A DNA stretch of 52,656 nt from Acidobacteriota bacterium (GTDB lineage Bacteria > Acidobacteriota > Blastocatellia > UBA7656), in NCBI GenBank assembly GCA_038040445.1, contig JBBPIG010000026.1:1-52656 (forward strand), given 5' to 3'. Below, piece after piece: positions 1,854 to 23,725 of this stretch. Made by a program: the position numbers and the translations under genes. Numbering within the stretch: the first letter of the stretch is position 1; the number at the start of each line of letters is the position of its first letter. The notes under the pieces were generated by a model. The model had not been told where the DNA came from and did no database searches. It was given only the letters and a program-made list of their open reading frames with translations.

Positions 1854-1863
1854 GGAACACAAC

Positions 1864-2358: not shown

Positions 2359-2460
2359 AGGAGCCGGCGGCGGCGGTTAGCGACGAAACATCTCGTGAAA
2401 CTGAGCGTAGGAGTGAAGAGCAACAATACCCAGAATTACAATAGTCAGAAGGAGAAGAAA

Positions 2461-3756: not shown

Positions 3757-3771
3757 GCAGGAGTAAATGAA

Positions 3772-9016: not shown

Positions 9017-9159
9017 ACGGGTGAGGTCTTAAATGCCCGGTGCGTCCATACGTTATGTCATGTTTCTCCCATGCTTTCGTGAGGCGGCGGTGTGGTCGGG
9101 TATTGAATGGCATTAGTTCAAGCGTGTGAAAATCGGTCTGAAAACTTCAGGAGTAGAAT

Positions 9160-9924
9160 ATGAGCGCGCAAGAGATCGCTGGGGTCAAAGAGACACTGAC
9201 AACAGCGCAGATTCACTTCTTCAAAGATAACGGTTACCTGATTCTTGATAATCTTATTGAGCCTCCAATCGTTGAGGAATGGCAACAGGCAATCTGTAAA
9301 TGTTTCGAAGTAAGCTCCAAAGATGACGACTCTTTGAATATTGGCAGAAAGAAAGGGCAGGATTTCAAATTCACTTCAGAGTCCTCGCTCGGTAACCACC
9401 TTCGCCTGTCCGGAGTGCTCAAGCAGTTAGTAGGTGGTACTTTCGAATTTGCATCGGAAGACCTTATTATCATCCGGCCAACGTCGGAGCAAGAGTGGTC
9501 TATGCCCCGGAGGGGCCATATTGATCGCTTCTTACCGTCTTACAGGTCTCGTTTCATGCTTGGCCTCACGACATATGCCTACGCAGTGTTACCTAAAGGG
9601 GGCGGCACGATTATCTGGCCGAAAAGTCATCTCAGTAATTGGGAATATTTTCAAGCCTTTCCTGATCATCATTACGGCAACGGCCCTGAAGCGGGTACTG
9701 GCCCCGTCCACGAACGGTTATCGCAGCGTGCTGTGTGTGAGCCTATTGAGTTTACTGCCAAACCGGGAACGGTTTTACTCTGGCATAGTTTCATGCTGCA
9801 TACTGCTTCCCTTAACATTAACAAAACACCTCGAATGGCCATCTTTTGCCGCTGGGGGCAACCGCTCCAACCCGAACAGCCACGTGAGACCTTCGGCGAC
9901 ATCTGGGAAAACTGGGCAATATAA
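9160..9924 (+). CDS. PhyH-type Fe(II)/2-oxoglutarate dioxygenase
   Basis: This 254-residue protein with AGGAG before ATG 9160 shows the complete PhyH active site: His120-x-Asp122 in RGHIDRF, distal His214 in FMLHTASLN and Arg225 in KTPRMAIF for 2-oxoglutarate. It would hydroxylate or otherwise oxidise a substrate with O2. It lies 143 bases after the helical pair, on the same strand and with the same AT-rich codon use, so it is probably the oxidative tailoring enzyme of the peptide cluster; DurX/CinX-type hydroxylases do this job in other RiPP pathways. It is not closely similar to the PhyH protein at 5728, so it is not a recent duplicate. Confidence 0.85.
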   Translation: MSAQEIAGVKETLTTAQIHFFKDNGYLILDNLIEPPIVEEWQQAICKCFEVSSKDDDSLNIGRKKGQDFKFTSESSLGNHLRLSGVLKQLVGGTFEFASEDLIIIRPTSEQEWSMPRRGHIDRFLPSYRSRFMLGLTTYAYAVLPKGGGTIIWPKSHLSNWEYFQAFPDHHYGNGPEAGTGPVHERLSQRAVCEPIEFTAKPGTVLLWHSFMLHTASLNINKTPRMAIFCRWGQPLQPEQPRETFGDIWENWAI

Positions 9925-9994
9925 AGACTCACTCTAAGGCTATGAAGCTGTTTGAAAAATAGCATTCGTAGTGTTTGCCGTACTGGAACTCTTT

Positions 9995-10654
9995 TCACGC
10001 AAGTCGGCACATATCGTCAAGTGCCACATCGAGGCGGCGCGTAAGCGCCGCTGGCGAGTTACCCACGCTCGGCAACCGGCTGACGACCTCTCCTCGGCGG
10101 ACGAGCAGTGTTGGGTAAGAGGAGACGCCAAGTTCACGGGCGAACGAAAAATCCTGTTGCGCCGCCGCGACCCCCTCCGGGCCAGTGAAGAAGGAGACTA
10201 CGCGCTCGGAGTCTAGGCCGTAGTCGCGAGCGATCATCGCTAAGGTCGCGGCGTCGGACAGGTTGAGCCCGTCGCGGTAGAAGGCCCGTTGCATTGCACT
10301 GATGAACTCTATCGAGAGATCCGGCGCTTGGTCACGGAGTGCGGCGAGCCCCGCCGCCGCCGCCGCCGAATCCTGCACGAAACTGCCTTCGCGCAAAAGA
10401 GCCTTATACGGATCGCCGAACGTGACGCCCATACGTCGAACGATTCGCGCGTTAACTTCCTCGATGTGACCATATGACCTGATAGGCAACCGGAGTTCGC
10501 CAACGAACAGACCGCCGCTGACCACACGAAACGGCACGCGATGGCGGTTAGCCTCGTAGAAGGTGTGAAGCGTAGGGCCGAAGCCGTAGCACCAACCGCA
10601 GTAGGCATCGGTGACATACAGCACTTCCGCCTCGGGAATAACTAATTCAGCCAC
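9995..10654 (-). CDS. DsbA/FrnE-family thioredoxin-fold oxidoreductase
   Basis: This protein of about 219 residues starts at GTG 10654 just after AAGGAGGAGG on the minus strand; a TTG six codons upstream would overlap that site. The redox motif CGWC appears in TDAYCGWCYGFGP and the cis-proline loop as SSYPTLLV, with the inserted helical domain of the DsbA/FrnE group. There is no signal peptide, so it is probably cytosolic, like FrnE. It converges with the dioxygenase gene, so it is not in the peptide operon. A role in handling the two-Cys peptide is possible but rests only on proximity. Confidence 0.85.
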   Translation of the reverse strand: MAELVIPEAEVLYVTDAYCGWCYGFGPTLHTFYEANRHRVPFRVVSGGLFVGELRLPIRSYGHIEEVNARIVRRMGVTFGDPYKALLREGSFVQDSAAAAAGLAALRDQAPDLSIEFISAMQRAFYRDGLNLSDAATLAMIARDYGLDSERVVSFFTGPEGVAAAQQDFSFARELGVSSYPTLLVRRGEVVSRLPSVGNSPAALTRRLDVALDDMCRLA

Positions 10655-10721
10655 CTGCCTCCTCCTTCTCAATACCGGAACATCTGCCGTTAAATGGATT
10701 CGGATTCACAAAGGAGCATTA

Positions 10722-10940
10722 TTGACTCCAGAAACTACATGGGGCGATTTACAAAAATTCAGGCGCGCGACCGGCGTCGGGCACCTGAACTTCAACGAGC
10801 CTGATGTGCAGAACTACACACGTAGCCCTCCGCTAGCCCCCAGCGTCTGGTTTGAATACGAGAGTGTCGCGCAAGGCGATGATTACACGGTTTTTCTCAC
10901 CAAACAGATAATATGTTCGAGTCGACAAGTCCGTCTTTAA
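10722..10940 (+). CDS. Small hypothetical protein
   Basis: A possible 72-residue protein starts at TTG 10722, five bases after AAAGGAG (10710-10716). The reading frame is open further upstream but would overlap the divergent oxidoreductase start. The sequence (TWGDLQKFRR, HLNFNEPDVQNY, VWFEYESVAQGDDYTVF) has a protein-like composition but no motif I recognise. It could equally be a fragment of a longer gene. Confidence 0.35.
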   Translation: MTPETTWGDLQKFRRATGVGHLNFNEPDVQNYTRSPPLAPSVWFEYESVAQGDDYTVFLTKQIICSSRQVRL

Positions 10941-11026
10941 GTGATTCTGGTTCTCCGGCCTCCGTCTAACTGAGTGTGACTGGAGTACCAGACTTCTACT
11001 TGATAGTTGAGGTGGAAGGAGCGGAC

Positions 11027-11481
11027 TTAATCGCGCAACTTTTCAAGCGCCTGCTCCAAGGATGCCCTCACGTGTATTGACTCCTCCGCTTCCATTCTTT
11101 TCTTGAGCGCTTCGATTGAAGCCGGACCACCAAAGTTGCTTAAGGCCTTCGCCGCGGCGGCGCGCACTGAGGCGTCGCTGTCATCAAGTGTCTTGATTAA
11201 CGAGGACAGCAATCCGCTGATCGCGCTGGCCTGACGCGCACATCCGTGAGAGGTCTTCAGCCGCGCGTTGACGCGCAAAAGGCGAGATGTCACCGAGCGA
11301 TTCAATCAGGCCCAGCAATCGCGCGTCTTTTGAAACACAAGGGCGTTCTTCAAACTCGATTGGTGATTCGTAGCCGCGGCGCTTGAGGTAAAGCCTTTCG
11401 TTGAGGTTCAGCCCTGTTGCCACTGAGCCCGTAGATGAGGGCCACGACGATGACAATGACCAGGATGGTGAAAAACGTCAC
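11027..11481 (-). pseudogene. Frameshifted HEAT-repeat membrane protein
   Basis: Three reading frames on the minus strand together spell one protein. It begins at GTG 11481 with a transmembrane helix (FFTILVIVIVVALIYG), continues in a second frame with LYLKRRGYESPIEFEE and a first HEAT-type repeat (LLGLIESLGDISPFARQRAA), and ends in a third frame with a second repeat (IKTLDDSDASVRAAAAKAL) and a C-terminal helix pair. Two shifts, near 11400 and 11230, break the frame. HEAT repeats mediate protein-protein contacts. This is a decayed gene unless both shifts are sequencing errors. Confidence 0.65.
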
Positions 11482-11483
11482 GA

Positions 11484-11556
11484 ATTGTCGATTGCCGATT
11501 GCCGATTGCGAATCGACAAGCCCTCATAGAGTCGGAAATCGGAAATCCGAAATCGC
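11484..11556. repeat. Intergenic low-complexity inverted repeat
   Basis: The gap between PBP1A and the HEAT pseudogene contains CGATTGC repeated three times and closed by a GTCGATT/GAATCGAC pair, then a GGAAATCGGAAATCCGAAATCG run. It can fold back on itself. It is one of several such word-repeat hairpins in this window and may serve as a transcription end for the PBP1A gene. Confidence 0.45.
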
Positions 11557-14118
11557 TCACCCGTTCTTCCCGCGCTTCTTTTTTTCGTCCTTGTCGGTAC
11601 TGCGATCATCGCGTTTGACTCCCGGTGGCGGACGGAAACTATCGCGATCCAGGTCCGGCCGCGGTTTCTCAACGCGCGGGGGTCTGGTGGAAGCGTCGCC
11701 TTCCGGCTCGACCATTCTTGGGGCGGACCGGTCTTTGGGCTCTTTGGTCTCTTTCGGCGTCTCCTCGTCCTGGGCAACGCTCTTTGCCTTATCGCTCAGT
11801 TCGTCGGTTGACCGGGCCGCAGCTTCTCCGGCTTGCGCCTCGCGAATCGCGCGTTCAGCCTCGGACCTGCGGGCGATCACTTCTTTATCCGGAGGAACGT
11901 TCTTGGGAAATTGATCGTTGGGTTTGTCCTTCAGGAACTTCTCCATGAAGTGAATCCACATCGGCAGCGCTGCGACCGAACCCGCTTCCTTGTTGCCCAG
12001 CGTCTTCTTCAACCCTGGATAACCGATCCAGACGCCGGCAGTGTAAGTCGGTGTGTACCCGATGAACCACGCGTCGGTGAAATCGTTTACCGTTCCGGTC
12101 TTGCCGCAGATCATCCGCTTGGCGAGTTCTTTGTTGGCCATCATCGACCCGGCCGTGCCGCCGGTGACCACTCCGCGCATCATCACTTGCATCTGGGAGG
12201 CGACCCAGGGTGAGATTGCTTTGGACGATTCAGAGTTCCACTCTTGCTTCATGTCGCCGTCTGAGTCGGTGACCCGCTTGATCAGATGCGGTTTGACGCG
12301 CACACCTTGATTCGAGAAAACCGAGTAAGCGCTGACCATATCGAGCAGCGGTTCCTCGGTCGCGCCAAGCGCCGACGGCAACACTCGTTTCATGGGGTTG
12401 GGCAAGCCAAAGCGTTTAACAATATTCGCGCCCTTGTCTACTCCGACTATCGACAGCAAACGCACCGCGACCACGTTGATCGATTGCTGGAGCGCGCTCC
12501 TGAGCGGCATCATCCCTCCGCCGCTCGACCCGTCGTAGTTTGCAGGAGACCAGCCAGTCACCGGATCGACAAACGGCTCCGCGCTCACAACCGTGTCGGG
12601 CGTAAAGCCATTCTCGACAGCCGCGGCGTAGATAAACGGCTTGAACGTCGAGCCGGTTTGCCGTTCGGCTTGAGTCGCGTTGTTGAACTTGCGAGTGGCA
12701 AAATCATAGCCGCCCACCATCGCCTTGACGTCGCCGGTCTTCGATTCCAGGCATATCAGCGATCCATCGACCGACGGCAGTTGATCAAGGGTGACCTCCA
12801 GCACTTTTTTGTCGTTGTCGGCCTTGTTGACCTTGAACACGGCGAGGTCGCCTTTTCGAAGCAGCTTCGACGGAGGCCCGCCCGCCCACTTCGTTGCCGC
12901 GTCGGTGAGCGAAGCCCTGTAGTCACCGAACCGGACCTCAGCGCTCGACGTGCCGACGCTCATCACCAGCCCGTAGATGTATTCGCCCGCCACATAGTCG
13001 CCCATCCAGTCCGGGTGTGAGTAGTGCGAAATATCACCGGGCGGCTTTTGATCGAGGATGTTGGTCAGCTTACCGCGCCAACGCTTGCCGTGCCGGTCTT
13101 CGTACGCGTGCAGCCCGCGGCGGACCGCTCGCACTGCCTCGCGCTGGGCCGCCCCGTCAATCGTGGTATAGATGTTCATCCCGCCGGTCTGGGTCTGCCA
13201 CGTTCCAAAGGTTTCTTCGGACTCCTGGCGCACCGACTCGACGAAGTAGCCGAAGATCGAGTTGTTTGCGTTTTGAGGAGGGCTGATGTTCAGGTTGATT
13301 CGAGTCTGGCGGGCGCGATTGTATTCGTCGTTGGTGATGTAGCCTTCTTCGTGCATCCGATAGAGCACGACGTTGCGCCGATCGAGCGCCGCCTTCTCAT
13401 CGCGCGTCGGCGAGTAGAGGCTCGGCGCCTTGGGAAGCCCGGCCAGCAAAGCGCTCTCTTCGAGCGTCAGGTCCTTGAGCGATTTGGAGAAGTAGTACTG
13501 GGAAGCCGCCTCGAAGCCGTAGGCGCCGCCGCCCAGGAAGATGTAGTTGCAATACATCTCCATTATTTGTTCCTTCGTGTAGTAGCGCTCGATTTGCAAC
13601 GCGAACAGTATCTCTCTGATCTTTCTTGTGTAGGTCTTCTCGGGAGTCAGGTACAGCGAGCGGGCAAGCTGTTGTGTGAGCGTCGAAGCGCCCTCGGCCT
13701 TGCGGCTCTTTATCAGATTTTTGAAGGCAGCGGTCACGATACGAATGGGGTCGACTCCAATGTGCTGGAAGAACCGGTCGTCCTCAATCGCAAAGACCGC
13801 GTTCTTCATCGTTTCCGGTATTTGATCGAAAGTGACCGGAATCCTGCGCTCGAGCGAGAATTCTCCAACGACCGTCTTGCCATCACCGGCGATAACGCGA
13901 GTGACCAGGTTAGGACGGTAGTTCGCGAGCCCCGCGACTTCTTGCGCCTGCTCGGTCATGCTCGCCTGATAGGCCACCGTGGCGCCAAACATCATCCCCG
14001 CGATGACCGAAAGCGCAACCAACGAAAGGAAGGTGTATTCGCGGAAAAACTCCTGAAGCCAGTTAGGCGAAAGCGCCAGTCCACGGCCTTGTAATCTGAG
14101 CTTATTGACAGAAAACAT
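11557..14118 (-). CDS. mrcA: Penicillin-binding protein 1A (transglycosylase/transpeptidase)
   Basis: This class A PBP of about 853 residues polymerises and crosslinks peptidoglycan in the periplasm. A single N-terminal membrane anchor (about residues 30-50) is followed by a GT51 domain with catalytic Glu in AIEDDRFFQHIGVD and EGASTLTQQLARSLYL. The transpeptidase domain carries STFK (GSTFKPF, nucleophilic Ser), SIN (QQSINVVAV) and KTGT (GKTGTVND). The last 100 residues are a highly charged, disordered tail rich in Lys, Glu, Arg and Pro. ATG 14118 has GAGGA upstream; an ATG seven codons earlier lacks one. All catalytic motifs are intact. It is transcribed alone. Confidence 0.95.
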   Translation of the reverse strand: MFSVNKLRLQGRGLALSPNWLQEFFREYTFLSLVALSVIAGMMFGATVAYQASMTEQAQEVAGLANYRPNLVTRVIAGDGKTVVGEFSLERRIPVTFDQIPETMKNAVFAIEDDRFFQHIGVDPIRIVTAAFKNLIKSRKAEGASTLTQQLARSLYLTPEKTYTRKIREILFALQIERYYTKEQIMEMYCNYIFLGGGAYGFEAASQYYFSKSLKDLTLEESALLAGLPKAPSLYSPTRDEKAALDRRNVVLYRMHEEGYITNDEYNRARQTRINLNISPPQNANNSIFGYFVESVRQESEETFGTWQTQTGGMNIYTTIDGAAQREAVRAVRRGLHAYEDRHGKRWRGKLTNILDQKPPGDISHYSHPDWMGDYVAGEYIYGLVMSVGTSSAEVRFGDYRASLTDAATKWAGGPPSKLLRKGDLAVFKVNKADNDKKVLEVTLDQLPSVDGSLICLESKTGDVKAMVGGYDFATRKFNNATQAERQTGSTFKPFIYAAAVENGFTPDTVVSAEPFVDPVTGWSPANYDGSSGGGMMPLRSALQQSINVVAVRLLSIVGVDKGANIVKRFGLPNPMKRVLPSALGATEEPLLDMVSAYSVFSNQGVRVKPHLIKRVTDSDGDMKQEWNSESSKAISPWVASQMQVMMRGVVTGGTAGSMMANKELAKRMICGKTGTVNDFTDAWFIGYTPTYTAGVWIGYPGLKKTLGNKEAGSVAALPMWIHFMEKFLKDKPNDQFPKNVPPDKEVIARRSEAERAIREAQAGEAAARSTDELSDKAKSVAQDEETPKETKEPKDRSAPRMVEPEGDASTRPPRVEKPRPDLDRDSFRPPPGVKRDDRSTDKDEKKKRGKNG

Positions 14119-14389
14119 TGTGATCCTCACTGACAGCAAGGTTGACGATGGAAGCCTCTGACTCTCGACATCAAGGGTACAGCAGCCCCGCTCGCGTTGT
14201 AAAGCAGCGCCGTTTTTGATGCAGACCTTCGCAATTCGGGTTGTCGCGGTTCCTTGTCAAGCTCGCATTCTCTTGAGGAAGCATCGGCGGAAGCTGAGAA
14301 TTCGAATGGAAATATATGACACAGGATGTCTCGACTACCCTGTACACTCTGCGCCAGTCGAAAGGCTCAGGCGCAGAAAGGAGGGTTGC

Positions 14390-15214
14390 ATGCAGTATGG
14401 ATTCACTATCGAAGGGGGCGACATCCAAGCCATCAGCGAGCTTACCCAGGAGGCAGAGGCTGCCGGGTGGGACGGCGTCTTTATAGCCGATGCCGTTGAC
14501 ATCGGACCGTGGCCCTGGTTCGACCCGTGGATCGTTCTCGCTGCGATGGCGATGCGTACGGAGCGCATTCGTATCGGGACGATGATAACCCCGGTGCCGA
14601 GGCGGCGTCCCTGGAGGATGGCCCGTGAAACGGTCACCCTGGATCACCTTTCGGGTGGCCGCCTGATTCTGGGAGTCGGGCTGGGAGCCGCCGAACATGA
14701 CGGAGGGTTCCACAAGGTAGGCGAAGCGATGGATATTAAGACCCGCGCGCAACGGTTGGACGAGGGCCTCGCGATAATGACCGGGCTCTGGAGCGGCAAG
14801 CCGTTCAGTTTCACCGGCGAGCACTACAGCGTGCAGGAAATGACCATGCTCCCGGCGCCGGTGCAGTCGCCCAGGATTCCTGTCTGGGTTCCTGGCGTTT
14901 GGCTCAAGCCGAAATCCATGGAACGCACGCTCAGATGGGACGGGATTATTCCGCAGAAGTACAAATCCATGGAGCGAATGACACCTGCCGAGATTAAGAA
15001 ACTAAAGCAATTCGTTGACGAGCATCGCCCGCAGACCACTCGATTCGATATCGTAGTCGGAGGTCAAACGCCCGGCGGCAATCGTAAGGAGGCAATCAAG
15101 AAAGTTGGCGCGTTCGCCAAAGCCGGCGCGACGTGGTGGCTTGAAAGCTTGATGACTTCTTCGTGGGATTCGCTGCGCAAGCGAGTCAAGCAAGGCCCGC
15201 CGAGACTGGAATAA
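14390..15214 (+). CDS. LLM-class flavin/F420-dependent oxidoreductase
   Basis: This 274-residue luciferase-like monooxygenase-fold protein begins MQYGFTIEGG, preceded by AAAGGAGGG. Family hallmarks are ELTQEAEAAGWDGVFIAD, the MRTERIRIGTMITPV strand and LDHLSGGRLILGVGLG. Such enzymes use FMN or F420 to oxidise or reduce small substrates. The fold is clear but cofactor and substrate are not. It is read divergently from PBP1A and converges with the pyrimidine cluster, so it is only possibly linked to that cluster. Confidence 0.85.
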   Translation: MQYGFTIEGGDIQAISELTQEAEAAGWDGVFIADAVDIGPWPWFDPWIVLAAMAMRTERIRIGTMITPVPRRRPWRMARETVTLDHLSGGRLILGVGLGAAEHDGGFHKVGEAMDIKTRAQRLDEGLAIMTGLWSGKPFSFTGEHYSVQEMTMLPAPVQSPRIPVWVPGVWLKPKSMERTLRWDGIIPQKYKSMERMTPAEIKKLKQFVDEHRPQTTRFDIVVGGQTPGGNRKEAIKKVGAFAKAGATWWLESLMTSSWDSLRKRVKQGPPRLE

Positions 15215-15268
15215 TAACGCCGTAGTCTGCGCCGATCGCCCTAAACTACTCGCCGCGAGTCGTCAGCC

Positions 15269-15790
15269 CTAACGCTTTCTGCTACTGACATTTTGCCGGA
15301 ACTGCCGCTCCAGCACTTCCCGTAGGACAGCGGGGCACTTCTGAACCTCGCGGATGTCGACGAAGACGACGCGCGCGATCGACTCCAGACCGCGCAGCAG
15401 ATGGCCGTAGCTCTCCGGCAGAGGAAGCGGGGCCACCGCTACGATCGGCTTGCCCAAGGCGCAGGCCCAGCCCAGCTCCACGTGCGTGCCATCGGTGCGC
15501 AAAACACCATCGCGTCCGGCAGGGAGAACCGCCACGAAGCTCTCGCACCGTTTCATCCAGTCGAAGTCGCGCATAGCGATCTCGTGGGAACTGAATTTCT
15601 CGCGGTCGAGGCCAAACGCTTCAGCGCGATGCGCGGAGAAGACTTCATAGCCGCCTCCCTCGAGTACCGAAAGGATCGACGTGATTAGTGCCCTCAACGG
15701 AGCGTCATACGTGTCTTGCGAGATGGCGTAGTGAATGGGCCCTCCTACGAAGACATTGCGGGGTTTCGAGGGTTGTGGCTTCCGCCCCAT
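15269..15790 (-). CDS. Nucleoside 2-deoxyribosyltransferase-like N-glycosidase
   Basis: This 173-residue protein has the Rossmann-like fold of nucleoside 2-deoxyribosyltransferases. FVGGPIHY opens the nucleotide site, and DGTHVELGWACALGKPI carries the likely catalytic Glu105. Family members swap bases between deoxyribosides or, as with MilB, BlsM and BcmB, hydrolyse the glycosidic bond of CMP derivatives. TAGGAG lies before ATG 15790. It is the last gene of the minus-strand block, 48 bases after the creatininase-like gene. With the ThyA-like enzyme 7 kb upstream it makes the enzyme pair known from hydroxymethylcytosine-forming pathways. Whether it hydrolyses a nucleotide or transfers a base is open. 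Confidence 0.8.
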   Translation of the reverse strand: MGRKPQPSKPRNVFVGGPIHYAISQDTYDAPLRALITSILSVLEGGGYEVFSAHRAEAFGLDREKFSSHEIAMRDFDWMKRCESFVAVLPAGRDGVLRTDGTHVELGWACALGKPIVAVAPLPLPESYGHLLRGLESIARVVFVDIREVQKCPAVLREVLERQFRQNVSSRKR

Positions 15791-15838
15791 GTAATCTCCT
15801 ATCTCCCAAAAGATCGTCCGCTCGTTGGGTTTATGGTC

Positions 15839-16618
15839 TCATTTCCTCGCGAGCCCATGAGGGTTGCGCACCAGCCGCTCAAGCTCGCTGGAGACGTGTT
15901 CGAACAGAGTCCGCCCGATCTCGGCCGAGGAGCCAGCGGTCTGTGCAAGAACCCCGCGGTCAGAGATCTGTTCCGGGTCGATTGGGTGCAAGTAGACGCC
16001 CGCGAGGGGAGGCCGCGAGTGCTGAGGTCGCTCTGCGCGCACGACCTCCGGTCGGAGATAGAGCATCAGCGAGGTCTCGCACAGACCGGCATGCTCCGCG
16101 TGCCAGCCAGGAAAGGCCCCACTGAAGAGCTTCGCTACAAAGTCTTGAGTGACGACACTCCACCAGCTCAACGAAATGACCTCTACTCCGTCGAGCCGAC
16201 CTGACTCGCGGCACACCTCCATCGACTCAAAGAGGAACGGCTCATTCTCGTAGTGCCCGTTGACGACGACGAGAGATCGGGCACCACAGCGAACGTAGGC
16301 TGTAAGAACGTCGGTGAAGTACTCGATCAGCGTCGTCCCGCGCACGGCGATAGTGCCCGGGAACGACGGGCCGCCGCCGCTTTGGGGAAGCGAACGCGCT
16401 CCATAGGTAATTGTTGGGGCTAGGTAGCCGCCGAGCCGCTCCGCAATCTCGCTTGCCAGCGCGTTGGCTATGTCAATGTCCACGGTCAGCGGCAGGTGTG
16501 GCCCGTGCTGCTCGATTGCTCCGACTGGAAGAATCAATCGCTCCTCCCGCAATCCTTCCTCCACCTCGGAGGACACCAAGTCCCCATATCTGCGTAATTG
16601 CTGTCCAGTATGGTTCAT
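15839..16618 (-). CDS. Creatininase-family amidohydrolase
   Basis: This 259-residue protein keeps all metal ligands of creatininase, each two residues later than in the Pseudomonas enzyme: Glu36 and His38 in GAIEQHGPHLP, Asp47, His122 and Glu124 in NGHYEN. The later ETSLML segment also fits. The family hydrolyses cyclic or linear amides with two metal ions; members include creatininase, the formamidopyrimidine hydrolase of flavin and F420 synthesis, and mycofactocin protease MftE. Its ATG overlaps the stop of the flavoprotein gene by four bases, so the two are coupled. In a pyrimidine pathway a ring-opening or deformylating step is plausible; peptide cleavage is an alternative. Confidence 0.85.
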   Translation of the reverse strand: MNHTGQQLRRYGDLVSSEVEEGLREERLILPVGAIEQHGPHLPLTVDIDIANALASEIAERLGGYLAPTITYGARSLPQSGGGPSFPGTIAVRGTTLIEYFTDVLTAYVRCGARSLVVVNGHYENEPFLFESMEVCRESGRLDGVEVISLSWWSVVTQDFVAKLFSGAFPGWHAEHAGLCETSLMLYLRPEVVRAERPQHSRPPLAGVYLHPIDPEQISDRGVLAQTAGSSAEIGRTLFEHVSSELERLVRNPHGLARK

Positions 16619-17562
16619 GCAGAGGCTCCTGGGAGGGCGGCACCGATCAGTTGTTGGGTCGTGACCCCCTCCTTCTTACACCATGCCGAAAGGTCACCGG
16701 TTATCTCGGACAGCAGCTCTATCCCCGATGTCATCAGCATCGTATAGAGTTGCACCGCGTTGGCCCCGACCTCAAGGTATTCCAGCACATCGGACGCGCT
16801 GCCCACCCCACCAATCCCGAAGATCGGGCATGTAATCCCGGCTTGGCGGAGTTCATAAATGGAGTGAAGGACGATCGGCTTGATCGCCGGCCCAGAGTAG
16901 GCGACGGGCCCGCCGAAGGCTAGGCGTCGATGCTCGAAGTCGACGAGAACCGAAGGCAGCGCATCGCTCAAGCTGATTGCGTGCGATCCCTCGCCAATGC
17001 TCGCCTTGACGTTCTCGAGTAGACCCGAAACGGCAGCCAACTTGACCGAAAATGGGACGTCAACCGCTTTACGCACGGCGGCAGCATAGCGGCCGACAAG
17101 CCTCCAATCTGCCACCTGCTGGCTCGCACCGTTCGGGCAGGAGACGCCGATTTCCAGGGCGCGTGATCCTGCCTCCACGATGCGTAGTGCCAGATTGCCA
17201 AGTTGCTCAGGCGAGTGGGCATAGATGCTTGTGATAACCGGGGCGTCCTGTTCGGCGAGCACGGCCAGGGTGCGCAGCCATTGCTCAAGTTTTACCCGTG
17301 AGTAGGTCGTTGAGTTGAACACGCCAGCCGGACCCTTCTTGACGCGTTCAATAATATTCTCTTTATCACCGACGTAGATGGTCTTGGTCACCACTCCACC
17401 CGCGCCAGCATTCAGTGCACGCTGGATCTGTGGAAGCGAATCCGAAACCGGACCCGAGGCTACCAATACCGGATTGGCGAGCTTGAGACCCAAGATCGCC
17501 GTAGTCAGCCTTTCGTCTGCTCTAATCAGAGTCGCCATCGTGCGACGCTCGCGCCAACCCAT
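16615..17562 (-). CDS. Dihydroorotate dehydrogenase-like flavoprotein
   Basis: This protein of about 315 residues is an FMN TIM barrel of the PyrD/PreA type: LGLKLANPVLVASGP at the start, GAGGVVTKTI, EIGVSCPNG, and the phosphate-binding CPIFGIGGVGSASDVLEYLEVGANAVQLYT. The usual active-site segment with the GLQNPG motif is replaced by GVFNSTTYSRV, so it is not a normal housekeeping PyrD. Reduction or oxidation of a pyrimidine-like ring is likely. ATG 17562 has AAGGGG upstream; ATG 17538 is the alternative. It overlaps the creatininase-like gene by four bases and follows the B12-type radical SAM gene by 65. A genuine pyrD may lie outside the window. Confidence 0.8.
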   Translation of the reverse strand: MGWRERRTMATLIRADERLTTAILGLKLANPVLVASGPVSDSLPQIQRALNAGAGGVVTKTIYVGDKENIIERVKKGPAGVFNSTTYSRVKLEQWLRTLAVLAEQDAPVITSIYAHSPEQLGNLALRIVEAGSRALEIGVSCPNGASQQVADWRLVGRYAAAVRKAVDVPFSVKLAAVSGLLENVKASIGEGSHAISLSDALPSVLVDFEHRRLAFGGPVAYSGPAIKPIVLHSIYELRQAGITCPIFGIGGVGSASDVLEYLEVGANAVQLYTMLMTSGIELLSEITGDLSAWCKKEGVTTQQLIGAALPGASA

Positions 17563-17627
17563 CCGCCTAACCCCTTGGCCAACAGAACGCAACTGAGCGT
17601 CAGGGCGATAAAGAAATGCCAATCTGA

Positions 17628-19691
17628 TCAGCCGCCTAGAGATTTACAATGAACAACACCCAATCGAGCAGCCTCCTCAAGCTGATCAACGAGCGAAAAC
17701 AGATCCCCCTCTCGCCCGCTAGCATTGTGATCCATCGCCCAGGTTTGCACAATGTCACCCGCTTTCTTTGATGATATCTGTAGTTGACGTACCGCGTGAA
17801 ACGTGAATGCGTCTGCTTTCAACAGTTGAACTCGTCCCGGCGCAACGCGTTTCCAGAGTAGATACATCGGCCCAGGCTCCGGCTCCGGAAGCGGATCGGG
17901 AGGCTTCGTCGACAACAGGGACTCTATATCTAGCGGTATTTCGAGCTTGCCCACGATGTCACCCAGAACCAGATTTGTCGATAATTCGATTTTGGGCCAA
18001 CCTTCTGACGGGAGACCCGTTCTGTAGTTGGCCATCGTCGTCGCTATGACGGGCTGTTCCTGGCCTGCGATCTCATGGTTGAGACGAATCACCTGGAGAA
18101 CAGAGAGCAGAGCCGGCGGAAATTCATGAATCAACCGCATTTCATCCATCAGGAAATCGGCGAAGAGTACCGGCGTGCCAAAGCACCGCCTATAAGATGC
18201 TGCGTTCCGGGCATCATTAAACTTGGAGATCCACTCGACCCACCGACGGTAGAGCGCGAACATCCCGCCTGAAGACTTAGCGAGCCACAGAGCTGGGAGC
18301 AGGGCTGCAGACACCAGCGTGGGAAATTCCTCGAGGCCGTCGATCAGCTCCTCTTTGATCTCCTCGCTATGGCGGCGGGGCCGATGGTAGGCCCCGAAGA
18401 CAACAGGATCGCTAGCAACCAATTTCCGATTCGCGGCGCCGAGCTCGGGCCCTAGAGGAAGATCCAAGAAGTGGCCAGTACAGATCCTGTCCCCCAACGT
18501 GCCAGCGATGGAGGAATCTTCAAAAGGGGTGAACTGGAAGAAGTGGACTGGAGCGCATCCAATTTCTAAAGCTCTAGCGTACGCGTCGAAAGTCTCGGAG
18601 AGGCTTTGCTCATCCTCACTAGGGAATCCGCCGATAAAGCCTACGTTCGCAGCTATCCCAGCCTCCAAGCAAGACCGTAAGATTTCGAATGAATGAGCTA
18701 CGTCGATCTTCTTCCTAATCTCAGCGAGGATGCGGGGCGAACCGCTCTCGAGGCCGAAGTAGATGGCACTGCAGCCTGCTGTAGCCATGAGTTTGAGAAG
18801 CTCAGCGTCGACAGTGTCAGTCCGTGAGCTGCAGGTCCATTTAATTGGTGCCCCGGCTCTGATCAACACCTGGCACACTTCCTGGACCCATGTTTTGCTC
18901 GTTGTGAAAAGGTCGTGCGTGAAGTGCATTCGCCGGGGCCCGTAGAGCCGGAGGACGTACAGCAACTCTTCGATGATCCTCGCACCAGACTTGACGCGAT
19001 ACGCTCGCTTCCAGAAAGGGGCGGTCGAACAGAAGGTGCATTGAAACGGGCAGCCGCGCCCGACCTCGAAGAAAATCTCCTCCTCCGGATCCGGCTCGTA
19101 GAGGTCGTACGCTGGATAAGGCAGCGTGTCGAGCTCCTTGATCAACGGTCTTTCTCCGGCAAAGAAGGGAGCGCCGCTCGGCTGTCGGTACCACACGCCA
19201 GGGGCGGAATTGAACCCGTCTGCCATCAAGCTGCGGATCAAATCCGCAAAGGACGTTTCTCCTTCTCCGCTGACAATGTAATCGATACACGGCCAGGACG
19301 TGAGGGTGGCGGCGGCAACAGCCGACGCGTGCGGGCCACCAAGAACAATGACGCAGTCCGGCTTGATCTCTTTGATCTCCCGGCAGATCTGGAGAACGTG
19401 ATGATAGGACTCGTTCTCAGTCATGAACCCTACTATGTCCGGGTCCGAGGAGCAGATCTCCGTTGCGGCTGAGCGATAGAAGCTGGGTCCCAGGGGGATG
19501 GTTCCGTCGACGATGCGCCGGTTCAGATCATAGAGTGACGGTTCGATTTGCAGCGATGAACGCATCGATGAGATCAGCGAAAGCAGTCCGATAGGAATGA
19601 AAGTGAGCATCGAGGAGGAAGCGACCTGGAAGTCGTTCTGCAAGACTGCCGGATGGCGCACGTGTGGGCTGGTTGCAAGTGTTATCCTCAT
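17628..19691 (-). CDS. B12-binding-domain radical SAM enzyme
   Basis: This protein of about 687 residues starts at ATG 19691 after GAGGAG. Residues 1-150 have the cobalamin-binding Rossmann layout (DPDIVGFMTEN, VIVLGGPHAS), but the DxHxxG cobalt-ligand motif is missing. The radical SAM core follows with CxxxCxxC at Cys214, 218 and 221 (GRGCPFQCTFCS), then YFGLESGSPRIL and VGFIGGFPSE. After the core come some 300 further residues; the last 80 (MYLLWKRVAPGRVQLL, LEEAARLGVV) look like a small separate domain, possibly PqqD-like. Such enzymes do methylations or ring rearrangements on unactivated carbons. It lies 28 bases after the SPASM gene and is surely co-transcribed with it. Confidence 0.88.
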   Translation of the reverse strand: MRITLATSPHVRHPAVLQNDFQVASSSMLTFIPIGLLSLISSMRSSLQIEPSLYDLNRRIVDGTIPLGPSFYRSAATEICSSDPDIVGFMTENESYHHVLQICREIKEIKPDCVIVLGGPHASAVAAATLTSWPCIDYIVSGEGETSFADLIRSLMADGFNSAPGVWYRQPSGAPFFAGERPLIKELDTLPYPAYDLYEPDPEEEIFFEVGRGCPFQCTFCSTAPFWKRAYRVKSGARIIEELLYVLRLYGPRRMHFTHDLFTTSKTWVQEVCQVLIRAGAPIKWTCSSRTDTVDAELLKLMATAGCSAIYFGLESGSPRILAEIRKKIDVAHSFEILRSCLEAGIAANVGFIGGFPSEDEQSLSETFDAYARALEIGCAPVHFFQFTPFEDSSIAGTLGDRICTGHFLDLPLGPELGAANRKLVASDPVVFGAYHRPRRHSEEIKEELIDGLEEFPTLVSAALLPALWLAKSSGGMFALYRRWVEWISKFNDARNAASYRRCFGTPVLFADFLMDEMRLIHEFPPALLSVLQVIRLNHEIAGQEQPVIATTMANYRTGLPSEGWPKIELSTNLVLGDIVGKLEIPLDIESLLSTKPPDPLPEPEPGPMYLLWKRVAPGRVQLLKADAFTFHAVRQLQISSKKAGDIVQTWAMDHNASGREGDLFSLVDQLEEAARLGVVHCKSLGG

Positions 19692-19719
19692 GACGAAGAC
19701 TCCTCTCTCTGCCGCGAGC

Positions 19720-20988
19720 TCAGAGCGATCCGCGCTGGAGCCGTCGCGGCTCGACAGGCCGCTCACATTCTCCCAGTTGAGATGCTCGCAGCATCGCCGT
19801 ACGGACTATGGTGCTCTGAATCTGGAAGTCAGAGGCCCCGCAAGCAAAGTACTCGCGGTGGCGAGCGTAAGAGAGCGCCGGGCACCTCGAGGCGCAGTAG
19901 TATTCCGGATTGTTAATTACGCAACCTTCGCAAGTCGACGTGAAGTTGTCCCAGCAGTAGCGACGTATCTCCCATTCGGAGCGCCACATGGAAGAGAACG
20001 ATCTCCCTTTGAGGCTCCCCGGTGAGAGAATGCTTACCGCAGCACAAGAGGTACAGGGGTAAACGGTTCCGTCAGAGGCAATATAGCAAAGGTACCTGCC
20101 GCTCGGGCAGCGGCGAGTTAGGTAACCGAGTGTCTCGCCATAGTCGAATATAGTGCCTACGCAGAGGCCGCTCATACGGTGATATTCCCGCTCCCACTCT
20201 TTCTCTTTGAGCCAGAATTCAGCCGCTTTCTGGACGTCCGACGGCGTGTTCTCTAGTTCAAGGTGTTGCTCCCCCCGCCCAAGCGGGCTGAATGGGACAC
20301 TTCGCACCGAAACACCGTTCTGCTGCGCCCAATCGAGCAATTCGCCCAACCGATCAATGTTTCGCTTGTGTGTGTTGGTCATGACGTTGGTCATGAAGCC
20401 CATTTGCTGGCTTCGGAGCACCGCACGGGCGGCGACATTGAAGTCGCTGGCAGGGTCCCGGGGGTTCATGATGTGAAGATTGTCGAGGCTGACGCTGATG
20501 ATGACACCGTCCCGCGGCAAACGATCGAGGAGCGCATCGGAGAGGAACATGCCATTTGTGGCGATCCCCACGAGCAGGCCCTGACTGCGTGCAAACTGCA
20601 CGAACTCCGCAAAGTCGGGGTGCAACGTCGGTTCGCCGCCAGTGAAGGTGACCGCCCATACGCCCATTTCCGCCATCTCTTCTAGCAGATGGAGGATCTC
20701 CGACGTAGCCAGCTCCCCTTCTCGCGGGGGGCCTGCGTCGATATAGCAATGCGGACAGTTTAAGTTGCACTTCCGCGTTATCTCAAACCATACGAGCAGC
20801 GGCGTATCAAGGTGAAAGCCTGGTCTTACAACCAGCTCCTCAAGCAGGTATGGTTGGAGCTCGTCCAAAGAGGCACCACGCTCCAACGCGGGTCCAGCGG
20901 CCTGGGTCAACAGATGTATCTGGCCCTCTGGAAAACCAGCGATATAACCGAAGTATTCGCGATTGAATCTGACAGTCTGCGGCTGCAT
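19720..20988 (-). CDS. Radical SAM enzyme with SPASM domain
   Basis: This 422-residue protein has the radical SAM motif CNLNCPHC (Cys74, 78, 81), the FTGGEPTLHPDF loop, and a Cys-rich C-terminal SPASM region for auxiliary clusters (RRCPSGRYLCY, YPCTSCA, TCEGCVIN, YYCASRCP). SPASM enzymes such as PqqE and MftC usually act on peptides, others on carbohydrates or cofactors. The first 60 residues may form a small substrate-binding domain. GAGGA lies six bases before ATG 20988. It is the first gene of the tight run leading to the N-glycosidase-like gene. No precursor peptide was found next to it, which leaves a small-molecule substrate as likely as a peptide. Confidence 0.9.
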   Translation of the reverse strand: MQPQTVRFNREYFGYIAGFPEGQIHLLTQAAGPALERGASLDELQPYLLEELVVRPGFHLDTPLLVWFEITRKCNLNCPHCYIDAGPPREGELATSEILHLLEEMAEMGVWAVTFTGGEPTLHPDFAEFVQFARSQGLLVGIATNGMFLSDALLDRLPRDGVIISVSLDNLHIMNPRDPASDFNVAARAVLRSQQMGFMTNVMTNTHKRNIDRLGELLDWAQQNGVSVRSVPFSPLGRGEQHLELENTPSDVQKAAEFWLKEKEWEREYHRMSGLCVGTIFDYGETLGYLTRRCPSGRYLCYIASDGTVYPCTSCAAVSILSPGSLKGRSFSSMWRSEWEIRRYCWDNFTSTCEGCVINNPEYYCASRCPALSYARHREYFACGASDFQIQSTIVRTAMLRASQLGECERPVEPRRLQRGSL

Positions 20989-21256
20989 TACGATCCTCGA
21001 TTCAATAGGACCTCAATAACATGCCGAAAGAGATGGTCCTTGCCTTCGCCTGCTATCGCAGGTGTTTCGAACCTGCCACCTGGCCACCTCACGTGCCGCG
21101 ACCACTTGACGCAACTATGGTAGCCAACTGCTTTTAGAGCGCAACGGCGCCGCTAGACAGACAGCAGATCTTGAAGCATTCGACCCGGCTCGCCGCCGTA
21201 TCCGACACAGGCGGCGTTTCCGCATTCGTACGTCAATTTACGTCCACTTGAGGCAA

Positions 21257-21715
21257 TTACTGCGCGACGCCAACTTGAGCGGAGACCGTCGCGATTCTGT
21301 CTGCCAGCACCTTGATTGCTTGAGGATTCCTTTGGGCAGCAGTTGGTCTTGGAGTACCGACCGACGCGCAATGCAGATGAACGACTTTCCAATCACCGTT
21401 TTCCTTCTTCCAGATAGTGCTCTGGCGCAAGACGGTAACCACCTGCGATTGCGTTATCTCCAAGAGTTGCATCAGGACCGCTGTCTCGTCCATTACCTGG
21501 ACATCGCTTTTCAGCACGTCCACTTTACGCTTTTCCTTGAGGAGTTTCTTGAAGTTCGCTTCATAGGCCGCACGTCCTTTGAAGGGTTCAGTGGAGCCGA
21601 TCGTGTAGATGCTGGCGTCTTCAGCGAAGTTTTCGAAATAGTCGGTTCCCTTCTCGTAGGTTGAGTTAAATCGTTCGATTCGTTTTTCGAGTCCTGGATC
21701 CTTTCGGGTTGCCAT
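21257..21715 (-). CDS. SnoaL/NTF2-like (DUF4440-type) protein
   Basis: This 152-residue protein has the cone-shaped NTF2-like fold: an N-terminal helix (LEKRIERFNSTYEKG), a FAEDASIYTIGSTEPFKGRAAYEANF segment and a C-terminal sheet ending STIWKKENGDWKVVHLHCA. The family includes small isomerases and cyclases and also non-enzymatic binding proteins. AGGAGG precedes ATG 21715. A strong promoter lies 100 bases upstream. It is transcribed towards the radical SAM genes, 268 bases ahead of the SPASM gene, so it may or may not belong to that operon. Confidence 0.8.
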   Translation of the reverse strand: MATRKDPGLEKRIERFNSTYEKGTDYFENFAEDASIYTIGSTEPFKGRAAYEANFKKLLKEKRKVDVLKSDVQVMDETAVLMQLLEITQSQVVTVLRQSTIWKKENGDWKVVHLHCASVGTPRPTAAQRNPQAIKVLADRIATVSAQVGVAQ

Positions 21716-21820
21716 AATCTTGCCTCCTGGTTTACGCCAATCTGGTTGTTGAGAGGATTCGTTGACGCGAGGCTTACGCAGCGTGAGTCACACGTAAACG
21801 ATGGGTTTCGGAACGTCCAT

Positions 21821-21849
21821 AACATACTCCGATCGCGCAAGAGTGTCAA
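21821..21849 (-). promoter_or_regulatory. Sigma-70-type promoter of the SnoaL-like gene
   Basis: On the minus strand a perfect TTGACA -35 box (21844-21849) is followed after 17 bases by a TATGTT -10 box (21821-21826). Transcription would start near 21814, about 100 bases before the SnoaL-like start, and could continue into the radical SAM genes. Confidence 0.6.
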
Positions 21850-22375
21850 CAACAATCGGTTCTTTTTACTACATAGTCTAAACCGTTGGTATATTGCTGA
21901 GGCGATGTATTCTCATCGTCCGGCGAACCGACCCTTCAAGGCTACTATTTATCGGTGTCATTGTAACCTCGATAGAAAACCTTACCCTTCCCTCCAAGAA
22001 TGCACAATTCTGAGGGCTTGCAACCGGAGCGATCGCAATTAGCTCAATCAATCAGAACCTCGAAAATGCATACTTTTCTACCTTCAGAAATTAAGGAAAG
22101 CATCAGCCGGAGAGAGGCGCAATAGTACTCAAGGCGCGGCGGCCGGAACATTGGATTCAAGTGGGTCGTGCGAAGAGGCGCCGCTCAGTCGCTTTATGGA
22201 GGTAATTTCACTTTTATGCTGCGCGGATTTCACACACTATGGTGGACCTCATACGCCAGCGCTCCCAATTCTCTATTGCGCTCTGCTTCGGGGGAGGGGC
22301 CGGCGTGCGGCTCGGGCCGGCCTGAAGTGAAAAGCGGCGCGGCTGGTCGTCGAGCGCTCAATACGAGAGCCCGAC
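21850..22375. other. Gene-free gap between SnoaL-like and ThyA-like genes
   Basis: No supported coding region is seen in either strand. The stretch is relatively AT-rich in its first half. Short open frames here lack ribosome binding sites and protein-like composition. The gap would have to be read through if the ThyA-like gene shared a transcript with the downstream genes, and the promoter at 21821 suggests it does not. Confidence 0.5.
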
Positions 22376-23401
22376 TTAGAAAGCTGTGCTCTTGGACGCT
22401 GCCTGCCAGTGCCGTCGCATCATCATTTGCAAAGGCACCGGCAATCTTTCCAGAGCAGCGTTGTTTTGGTCTTCGGTGAGGCTGTGGAGCCAATGTCCGA
22501 GGACGACGAGCTTCGAATGGCGAGCGAACTCCGATCCGCCCTCACCGGCTTGCAGCATATCGAGAAGCGAGCGGACGTCACGCGCGCGCCCCACGGAACG
22601 AGCGCGTTCTTCGAATTCCAGAACCTCCGCAAGCTCAAGCTCGCTCCCGTCTGCGCGGCCGAACTCAATTGAGCGCAAGGGGTTGCCGAGCACCCGCTCC
22701 GCGAACTCACGTTCCTTTTGGTAGATGTGAAACGTGCCACAGATGTGCCGGTAGGTACCCACAGCCGCGCCGACCCGCGCAGCCATGACGCACTGCAACA
22801 TCATAAAAAGAAATGCGTCATACGGAAGGATTAGCAGGGCGTGTTGCGCACGCATGTAGGTGATAGAATGGAGGCGTCCATCGCGGAGGAAGTACTGGAG
22901 TCCTATACAACAGGGGTACTCACGCGAGCGTTGAACGTTATCGCCGGCATCGCAGATAGCTGCGAAAGTTCGTCGGCTCGAGGTGTCCACTCGCAACCGT
23001 TCGACGATGGCGTCGATCTGGTCGATCTCATCACGATATCGGAAGAGGCGCTTCCCGAAAGCGCCCGACAAACTGATTCCGTCATCGGAGAAATTCCGTG
23101 CCTCTGGGTGATAGGACTGAAGGCGTTCAAGGTCGTTGGAGCCAGCTAGAGTCCACAAGAATGAGCCGACGCAATACGGCAGCCGCAGCGGACGCGCGTC
23201 CGAATCAACAAGGCAGGCAAAAGGGTTCGTAACTTCGAACGAATAGCCAATCATTTCGATTGAAGGCCGGTCGGCGCACCCGAACCCTGATGCCGGAGAA
23301 GTCGGCTCCCGCACCGACGGCACGGGATGTCCGTCCTGAAGGAGATCCAGGAGGCCATGTCGATACGCGGCAGCCAAGTCCGGATGTGAATTCATTGCCA
23401 T
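22376..23401 (-). CDS. Thymidylate synthase-like pyrimidine C5-modifying enzyme
   Basis: This 341-residue protein is a diverged ThyA homologue. The catalytic Cys aligns with Cys164 in YPCCIGLQYF. Phosphate-binding Arg residues are in SSRRTFAAI and YMRAQ (Arg184), and the sugar-binding His-Tyr is in GTFHIYQKE (His225, Tyr227). The Asn that selects uracil in ThyA (Asn177 in E. coli) is Asp195 here (LPYDAFLF). Asn-to-Asp at this site turns L. casei ThyA towards dCMP and is the natural state in T4 dCMP hydroxymethylase, so a cytosine nucleotide is predicted. The catalytic Glu58 position appears to be Ser (GSFLW). It probably adds a one-carbon unit at C5 for the cluster's product. Confidence 0.82.
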   Translation of the reverse strand: MAMNSHPDLAAAYRHGLLDLLQDGHPVPSVREPTSPASGFGCADRPSIEMIGYSFEVTNPFACLVDSDARPLRLPYCVGSFLWTLAGSNDLERLQSYHPEARNFSDDGISLSGAFGKRLFRYRDEIDQIDAIVERLRVDTSSRRTFAAICDAGDNVQRSREYPCCIGLQYFLRDGRLHSITYMRAQHALLILPYDAFLFMMLQCVMAARVGAAVGTYRHICGTFHIYQKEREFAERVLGNPLRSIEFGRADGSELELAEVLEFEERARSVGRARDVRSLLDMLQAGEGGSEFARHSKLVVLGHWLHSLTEDQNNAALERLPVPLQMMMRRHWQAASKSTAF

Positions 23402-23725
23402 GGAGCCTCTTTTGATCTACCCGCAATTGAGCGGCCAGGGGCGGGCCTTGCTAGAAAACTGCAGCCACTTGACGGCTTCGCCCGTGCGGCTTAACGGCGG
23501 CGGCATCATAGCACGATCTATAAGGCTGCGAAAGTAGGCAGCGTTTCGTTTCAATTCAAATAGAATCTCAGTTTCGAAAACGCTCTGTGCGCTCTCTGCT
23601 CAGTTCCGATAGGCAGAGACGGTCATGGCCAGACATCCTGAGGATCGCAGAACAGGTTTGACAGGGTCTCTTAGCGACCTGAGTCACGGCGAATGCATTC
23701 CTGCCAGCTTCGAGGGTTTGGATAG
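23402..23725. other. Gene-free gap upstream of the ThyA-like gene
   Basis: This gap of 324 bases separates the AI-2E transporter stop from the ThyA-like start, both on the minus strand. It should hold the promoter of the ThyA-like gene. I see no coding region, RNA gene or strong repeat in it. Confidence 0.5.

Follow-up and report, generated by a model that had tools for sequence, protein, structure and literature searches.

What could a bacterium make with a gene set that joins enzymes of cytosine nucleotide chemistry to a pair of radical enzymes? The question is raised by contig JBBPIG010000026.1 of an Acidobacteriota bacterium (Blastocatellia; UBA7656; assembly GCA_038040445.1), of which a stretch of 52,656 nt, here called the window, was analysed. 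Between 15269 and 23401 its minus strand carries seven intact genes encoding, in the order of transcription, a thymidylate synthase (ThyA)-like enzyme, a SnoaL-like protein, a SPASM-type radical S-adenosylmethionine (SAM) enzyme, a B12-binding radical SAM enzyme, a flavoprotein resembling dihydroorotate dehydrogenase (DHOD), a creatininase-family amidohydrolase and a protein of the N-deoxyribosyltransferase (NDT) family. The answer that we favour, tentatively and as a possibility somewhat short of probable, is that these form two modules, with one further enzyme beside them. Module A (DHOD-like, creatininase and NDT-like) would turn cytidine monophosphate (CMP) into an amidine, and module B (the SnoaL-like protein and both radical SAM enzymes) would perform carrier chemistry like that of the ribosomally synthesized and post-translationally modified peptides (RiPPs). 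We infer the reactions and their order, and that both modules feed one product.

An original prediction, made from the sequence alone, had read these genes as a modified-pyrimidine cluster. Reading frames and Pfam agree with it on the number of genes, the strand and the families (ThyA-like, Thymidylat_synt 3.7e-17; SnoaL-like, SnoaL_3 9.6e-8; SPASM enzyme, Radical_SAM 9.2e-21 and SPASM 5.9e-6; B12 enzyme, B12-binding 3.6e-13 and Radical_SAM 5.3e-20; DHOD-like, DHO_dh 2.3e-26; creatininase, Creatininase 7.3e-53; NDT-like, Nuc_deoxyrib_tr 9.8e-10). The spacing likewise bears out the tight run that it described for the last five genes: the creatininase and DHOD-like genes overlap by 4 bases (16615-16618), 48 bases separate the NDT-like gene from the creatininase gene, 65 the DHOD-like gene (from ATG 17562) from the B12 radical SAM gene, and 28 the latter (ATG 19691) from the SPASM gene. 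Upstream of the SPASM gene, at a distance of 268 bases, lies the SnoaL-like gene, and a gap of 660 bases divides the latter from the ThyA-like gene, which is farthest upstream; the ThyA-like gene is tied to the other six only through an insertion that they share.

This insertion is seen by comparison with relatives. In a genome of the same genus (G001, locus L055) the genes for an AI-2E transporter (32-688), a luciferase-like protein (749-1690) and PBP1A (1712-4495) are adjacent without the cluster, with 60 bases where the window has 8.5 kb, and in a genome of the same family (G005, L054) AI-2E adjoins PBP1A. The empty site in G001 places all seven genes, the ThyA-like gene included, within one difference between genomes, which does not show that the whole insertion came from one event. 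Given this empty site and the recurrence of both modules elsewhere, the grouping of the seven genes is not mere chance. The segment is probably a biosynthetic island gained by horizontal transfer, and its product may be an antibiotic-like compound. Codon use is only slightly off (mean log score -1.18 for the seven genes and -1.11 for 12 neighbours), and thus neither proves nor excludes transfer. A 16-nt inverted repeat that brackets the insertion (15186-15201 / 23440-23455) is 1 of 22 such pairs and probably due to chance.

Table 1. Features of the seven-gene segment, with the basis of each assignment.
Feature	Coordinates	Strand	Basis or remark
Inserted segment with all seven genes	15215..23725		limits are the flanking genes, no mapped junction
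MilA-like CMP (hydroxy)methylase, ThyA family, 341 aa; Cys164, Asp195, Ala185, Arg143	22376..23401	-	PDB match and residues
SnoaL/NTF2-like protein, 152 aa, proposed carrier (scaffold)	21257..21715	-	Pfam SnoaL_3, fold prediction, co-occurrence
SnoaL-like tail, last 18 residues KVLADRIATVSAQVGVAQ, proposed substrate	21260..21313	-	conservation, low pLDDT (predicted local distance difference test)
SPASM radical SAM enzyme, 422 aa	19720..20988	-	Pfam, NCBIfam
B12-binding radical SAM enzyme	17628..19691	-	open from GTG 19766; ATG 19691 is the likelier start
C-terminal domain of the B12 enzyme, possible RiPP recognition element (RRE, peptide-binding) fold	17649..17873	-	predicted structure, weak
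Flavoprotein like DHOD or dihydropyrimidine dehydrogenase (DPD)	16615..17538	-	open from TTG 17622; ATG 17538 is the Agrobacterium start
Creatininase-family amidohydrolase, 259 aa	15839..16618	-	NCBIfam, PDB
CMP N-glycosidase-like protein, NDT family, 173 aa, Glu105	15269..15790	-	PDB match

Module A recurs in an unrelated bacterium. The DHOD-like, creatininase and glycosidase genes are found in identical order on two Agrobacterium tumefaciens plasmids (pAtCFBP6626b and pAtA74a_b), with 44, 47 and 40% identity, in a locus that gave no ThyA, SnoaL, SPASM or B12 enzyme match. Their neighbours there are LuxI/LuxR, a 2-oxoglutarate oxygenase, a DapDC-like pyridoxal phosphate (PLP) protein, an ATP-grasp-like protein and a MATE exporter; the DapDC-like and ATP-grasp-like calls are both library matches below cut-off, the latter matching only weakly, to ATP-grasp_3 and to the ligase BesA. 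These two records are the only plasmid matches of the DHOD-like protein at 1e-25, and a search with the Agrobacterium homologue at 1e-20 gave 15 plasmid records, namely its own two and 13 below 60% identity, the eight of these that were listed reaching at most 36%. A three-gene unit that an unrelated bacterium also has, and has without radical enzymes or ThyA, should perform a pathway of its own; this points to reduction and ring-opening of the base, in which the pyrimidine is probably consumed and not elaborated.

The enzymes themselves suggest what this pathway might be. The NDT-like protein would cleave CMP to cytosine and ribose phosphate. Its best PDB match is BlsM (9e-18), followed by MilB-type CMP N-glycosidases (to 1e-13); the six best chains are BlsM, one CMP N-glycosidase and four MilB sequences, and other NDTs appear only at 0.01 and 0.09. 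Glu105 is the equivalent of the catalytic Glu103 and is invariant in all six aligned sequences. This comparison supports an assignment to the CMP N-glycosidase type. The DHOD-like flavoprotein would then reduce the C5=C6 bond of cytosine, giving dihydrocytosine. It keeps Cys671 and Asn609 of DPD, and has Asp at Asn736 and Gly at Asn668, likewise in Agrobacterium. An Asn-to-Asp change marks cytosine use in MilA and T4 CH, according to the accessible part of a structural study (PMC5175136), and by analogy the change at Asn736 lets the flavoprotein be read as a cytosine reductase.

The window creatininase passes the NCBIfam cut-off for creatininase (241.7 bits, cut-off 235), and its best PDB match is a creatininase (1j2t, 2e-43), with most of the length aligned. 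It would hydrolyse the C2-N3 acyl-amidine bond of dihydrocytosine, which is much like the creatinine bond cut by creatininase, and the resulting carbamate would lose CO2 to leave 3-aminopropionamidine. We take the congocidine cluster (cgc, Streptomyces ambofaciens) to make this same compound from CMP with NDT-, DHOD- and creatininase-type genes. All three types are together here as in congocidine/netropsin, a likeness of gene types and not of sequences; unlike congocidine, the island has no nonribosomal peptide synthetase (NRPS) or pyrrole genes, and its MilA-like and radical SAM/SnoaL genes are extra. The available text of PMC4047045 confirms only that 3-aminopropionamidine is a precursor common to pyrrolamides, and a literature search, with most subscription papers outside its reach, gave no account of its origin in the titles and abstract openings listed.

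The extra enzyme is the ThyA-like protein. Its best PDB chains are MilA (5b6d/5jnh, E 3e-29), the best thymidylate synthase being at 3e-13, and by alignment three of the four positions checked agree with MilA: Cys164 is the catalytic Cys155 and is invariant, Asp195 is Asp186 (cytosine; Asp in place of Asn), and Ala185 is Ala176 (ribose; Ala in place of Ser), the fourth being Arg143 where MilA has Lys133 (ribose, auxiliary). These residue rules are those of PMC5175136, as far as its accessible text goes. The genome encodes two further ThyA-type proteins, one beside a frame that by eye looks like dihydrofolate reductase and one beside a 5-hydroxymethyldeoxyuridine DNA kinase-type protein, so the window enzyme is not its sole relative of thymidylate synthase. 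We propose that part of the CMP would receive a hydroxymethyl (or methyl) group at C5 from the MilA-like enzyme, leading to an amidine with a 2-substituent. A MilA-like enzyme ahead of a ring-opening module would be a route to a substituted beta-amino amidine, and we know of no other case.

It is worth adding two observations on ThyA relatives. In the same genome (contig C18, about 52483-53058; L019) a ThyA-like gene with the uracil-type Asn lies directly behind that of a protein with the helical domain of 5-hmdU DNA kinase (HMUDK_hel, 1.2e-112), and the pair may be a system for hypermodified thymine in DNA. Among plasmids, the MilA-like protein has its best match (41-42% identity) on one of Streptomyces NBC_01591 (L026, 11968-17742), next to a further B12 radical SAM protein and close to a FemAB-like protein; the 25 kb read gave no match to an N-glycosidase at 0.01.

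With MilA-like and MilB/BlsM-like proteins inside one insertion, the pyrimidine ring could also stay intact: hydroxymethyl-CMP would be made by the MilA-like enzyme, 5-hydroxymethylcytosine freed and the ring decorated, as in mildiomycin (MilA/MilB) and bacimethrin (BcmA/BcmB). Both enzyme types are present here, with Asp186, Ala176 and Glu103 matched. The NDT-like protein matched seven plasmid records at 1e-6, and the gene context could be read in six: the two Agrobacterium records share a single context, another record has a blasticidin-like cluster, and in the other three ThyA lies near NDT. We take these three to be bacimethrin-like, and they also speak for an intact ring. The seventh, Embleya NBC_00888, is unannotated; its NDT and creatininase genes lie about 66 kb apart, and neither stretch read holds a DHOD-creatininase-NDT triad. 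On the other side, the available text of PMC4081090 states that the motif F-L-(G/A)-(G/A)-P-F-(R/K) belongs to those MilB homologues whose genes are linked to MilA-type genes and is absent from others. At this position the window has F-V-G-G-P-I-H (Ile19, His20) and Agrobacterium F-V-G-G-P-I-Q, so by this rule the glycosidase should not be hydroxymethyl-specific, although the motif His might still contact the hydroxymethyl group. The replacement of Lys133 by Arg and the occurrence of module A without ThyA in Agrobacterium also tell against an intact ring. Finally, DHOD and creatininase stand here where mildiomycin and bacimethrin have a cytosylglucuronic acid synthase (MilC, in the accessible text of PMC11784345) or a pyrimidine kinase; Pfam finds neither such a glycosyltransferase nor such a kinase among the seven. 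We consider the intact-ring route unlikely.

Module B recurs separately, mostly in rhizobia, and its enzymes point in another direction. By sequence, the nearest curated families of both radical enzymes are RiPP maturases: for the SPASM enzyme the mycofactocin maturase (125.8 bits, below the NCBIfam cut-off of 265), and for the B12 enzyme ApyD (268.6 bits, below 750). The SPASM enzyme matched 28 plasmid records at 1e-15, of which five (Sinorhizobium, 60-62%, and Mesorhizobium, 45%) align along 95-97% of the query; 20 more were listed, with at most 31% identity, and three lie beyond the listing. The B12 enzyme orthologue is 45% identical in Sinorhizobium. A SPASM profile scan of genome contigs found 4 of 59, three of them close (Bradyrhizobium, Mesorhizobium and a Reyranella metagenome-assembled genome) and one weak (Chlorobaculum, 26%), and an orthologue is also present in an IMG/VR contig (L036). 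A pattern scan of genome contigs matched six stretches, none of which proved to be a relative.

A SnoaL-like protein is present in all ten genomes or records with a SPASM orthologue, these being five plasmid records, three genomes, L036 and the window itself (two plasmids were found again by profile); in Bradyrhizobium and Reyranella it is on a different contig from the SPASM gene. Searching plasmids with the SnoaL-like protein returned 5 of 72,556 records, identical to the five SPASM records. The B12 gene follows the SPASM gene in 8 of the 8 places where the sequence read extends so far, one locus (L025) ending before it and being left out of this count. Sinorhizobium meliloti, S. medicae and L036 share the run SnoaL-QueA-PqqD-SPASM-B12-PLP (by Pfam for S. 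meliloti only, by likeness for the other two); the S. meliloti PqqD-like protein scores 20.7 bits, under the Pfam threshold of 23.4. The closest parallels are plasmid pRmeGR4a of S. meliloti GR4 and L036, which have SnoaL with a GVAQ end, SPASM and B12 radical SAM as here; they have QueA-, PqqD- and DapDC-like genes in addition and no module A match. When the module B loci L022-L025, L027-L029 and L036 were compared, ThyA, NDT, the DHOD-like protein and creatininase gave nothing beyond short matches of the kind expected by chance. Given that the radical enzymes accompany the SnoaL-like protein in these loci, they more likely act on its tail than on a pyrimidine.

The original claim of a modified-pyrimidine cluster thus stands in part: MilA-like residues and a CMP N-glycosidase type are present, while the hydroxymethyl-CMP motif and Lys133 are not. 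Its later steps fare worse. It had the cytosine elaborated by the remaining enzymes, where module A alone in Agrobacterium points to base reduction and ring-opening, and it had radical steps on the pyrimidine, where the radical enzymes keep company with the SnoaL-like protein in other bacteria. It was to fall if the genes were scattered in relatives, and what was found lies halfway, in that the seven-gene set is nowhere else in the searches made and two three-gene modules recur. Amidine ring-opening together with a protein-borne radical module accounts for more of the genes than does a C5-modified cytosine.

The same distribution would fit two unrelated pathways that share one insertion by chance, since each module occurs elsewhere without the other. 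No second instance of the full set was found in the relatives, phylum, order, family, plasmid and viral searches made. The SPASM enzyme at 1e-30 matched 1 of 147 relatives, its own genome, and none of the other 146; the DHOD-like protein at 1e-45 (1 of 297 phylum genomes) and the SnoaL profile at 1e-12 (1 of 386 genomes) likewise found only their own genome. An order-wide search around Bradyrhizobium gave 1 of 397, Bradyrhizobium itself; a family-wide DHOD-like profile search around Mesorhizobium gave 0 of 297, in a set without a positive control, and viral contigs 0 of 280 stretches for the DHOD-like profile. The B12 enzyme at 1e-40 matches 49 of 297 phylum genomes, and in four such loci (G377, G308, G349 and G204) and the region of its own-genome paralogue there was no SnoaL, DHOD, creatininase, NDT or ThyA match at 1e-3. 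No paper on the gene set was found by the literature search, whose reach excluded most subscription papers. Against a chance pairing stands the arrangement itself, with five genes in a tight run on one strand, a 4-base overlap, and the radical enzymes followed directly by module A, and we think it quite improbable.

A possible substrate for the radical enzymes is the tail of the SnoaL-like protein. In an alignment of four divergent rows, scanned in 126 windows of 18 columns, conservation is highest in its last 18 residues. The tails end in ...IATVSAQVGVAQ in the window, ...IATISAVLGVAQ in Sinorhizobium, ...IATVAATVGVAQ in L036 and ...VATAAAAVGTPK in the Mesorhizobium-Bradyrhizobium-Reyranella group, within which the tails are identical at 18 of 18 positions and the bodies at 60-79%. 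These alignments omit L024, which is frameshifted, and M. loti CP050294.1; L025 is used in one, and L028 takes its place in the seven-sequence alignment. Structure prediction from a three-row alignment gives an NTF2 body with pLDDT block means of 80-91 (residues 11-120) and a tail at 40-47, with a helix at 131-147 at low confidence; the best Foldseek match of the model is the NTF2-like protein 3f7s. A conserved end outside the confident fold, two radical enzymes like RiPP maturases and the PqqD-like proteins of relatives together suggest a carrier, and the SnoaL-like protein may be a RiPP-like one that is modified at its C-terminal tail by the SPASM and B12 enzymes. By conservation and linkage only, it has the form expected of a RiPP precursor, gene-encoded and with a conserved C-terminal stretch beside maturases.

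The C-terminus of the B12 enzyme is predicted as beta-beta-alpha-alpha-alpha-beta, the order of an RRE, with a mean pLDDT of 61. In VIA-align it matched the RRE of TbiB1 (5v1u, Z 4.5) and PqqD (3g2b, 3.8; 5sxy, 3.4), a weak resemblance, with unrelated ribosomal proteins at 3.7 and 3.6.

Three minor observations concern the SnoaL-like gene. A 22-nt repeat occurs around and within it in three imperfect copies (window 21098-21537; 73-77% to the reference). A frame of 34 aa (20988-21092), ending in TAATG where the SPASM gene begins, was weighed as a candidate precursor. In Mesorhizobium huakuii 583 (L024, 6441-6900) the SnoaL-like gene is frameshifted, and the annotated product is without the conserved tail because a different frame encodes it.

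With a mycofactocin maturase as the nearest curated model of the SPASM enzyme and a conserved SnoaL tail, the whole set might be a mycofactocin-like RiPP system, in which creatininase would be the MftE-like peptidase, the DHOD-like protein would take the role of MftD, and ThyA and NDT would be passengers. In the available text of PMC10885120, MftE, a creatininase homologue, cuts the modified peptide, and in mycofactocin and pearlins a peptide end serves as a work bench and is then released by hydrolysis. The carrier here would instead be a folded NTF2 protein, and Pfam finds no PEARL aminoacyl-tRNA ligase among the seven genes. Membership in the mycofactocin system was rejected, with MftC at 125.8 of 265 bits and MftE at 117.1 of 172, both under the cut-offs, whereas the creatininase model passes its own. 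Moreover, Agrobacterium has DHOD, creatininase and glycosidase without a SPASM, B12 or SnoaL-like match, and neither a DHOD nor a creatininase gene turned up in the rhizobial module B loci, which makes a mycofactocin-like system very unlikely. Least probable of all is a reading in which the SnoaL-like protein works on small molecules as a cyclase, isomerase or dehydratase, with a free metabolite as the substrate of the radical enzymes. For it speak the invariant Arg, His and Asp of the body and structural neighbours that include ketosteroid isomerase and other enzymes; against it, the best conserved stretch is a tail outside the confident fold, and three related loci have PqqD-like proteins.

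The reading with two modules and one extra enzyme would give, as end product, a radical-modified amino acid or short peptide together with a cytosine-derived amidine. A bolder form of it would be a new class of hybrid product, in which the NTF2 tail is the work bench and its residue is joined to (2-hydroxymethyl)-3-aminopropionamidine from CMP or hydroxymethyl-CMP; this we hold to be rather doubtful.

Several findings weigh against the two-module reading. The MilA-like gene was seen in neither module elsewhere, and the likeness of module A to congocidine is one of gene types. The Gly at DPD Asn668, the score of the Agrobacterium creatininase (199.7 bits, under 235) and the lack of an electron partner for the DHOD-like protein among the seven genes do not favour module A as drawn; unlike the Agrobacterium cluster, the seven include no ligase or NRPS to join the amidine. 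For module B, the heme-pathway models NirJ2 (113.7 bits) and AhbD (112.1) almost equal the mycofactocin model for the SPASM enzyme. Module B of the window is without the DapDC-like, decarboxylase-like PLP protein that comes next in all seven of the other loci read through (the genome has one distant relative, 26%), and without the QueA- and PqqD-like genes of the three Sinorhizobium-type loci. For the C-terminus of the B12 enzyme, neither a profile comparison with PqqD nor plain Foldseek was positive. Between the window and the Mesorhizobium group only 7 of 18 tail residues are identical, with bodies at 22-27%, and five body residues are invariant in seven sequences (Asp33, Arg63, Arg97, His113 and His115), which keeps an enzyme role possible.

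Should module A make an amidine from CMP outside Streptomyces, three small proteins would suffice for a direct test of where natural amidines come from. Should the SnoaL-like protein be a carrier, folded NTF2 proteins would join the kinds of ribosomal precursors, and the conserved tail with the SPASM enzyme would be a handle for finding clusters on rhizobial plasmids and elsewhere.

A few further loci were noted. The genome of the window has a second B12 radical SAM protein (contig C6, 122500-142499; L015), in a frame of 717 aa. A weak SPASM-type match lies about 2 kb from it, and the remaining window genes have no match in that region. The viral-collection contig L036 carries its Sinorhizobium-like SnoaL-QueA-PqqD-SPASM-B12-PLP run at 7928-14552. 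In Mesorhizobium, Reyranella and Bradyrhizobium (L028, L027, L029 and L024), module B lies in large clusters, some on plasmids, whose surroundings are an uncharacterised biosynthetic cluster. Its families, tested for L028 only, include a phosphodiesterase, DegT, a split transketolase, a PLP decarboxylase-like protein, DUF3050, and TldD-like, BtrH-like (under cut-off) and sulfatase-like proteins.

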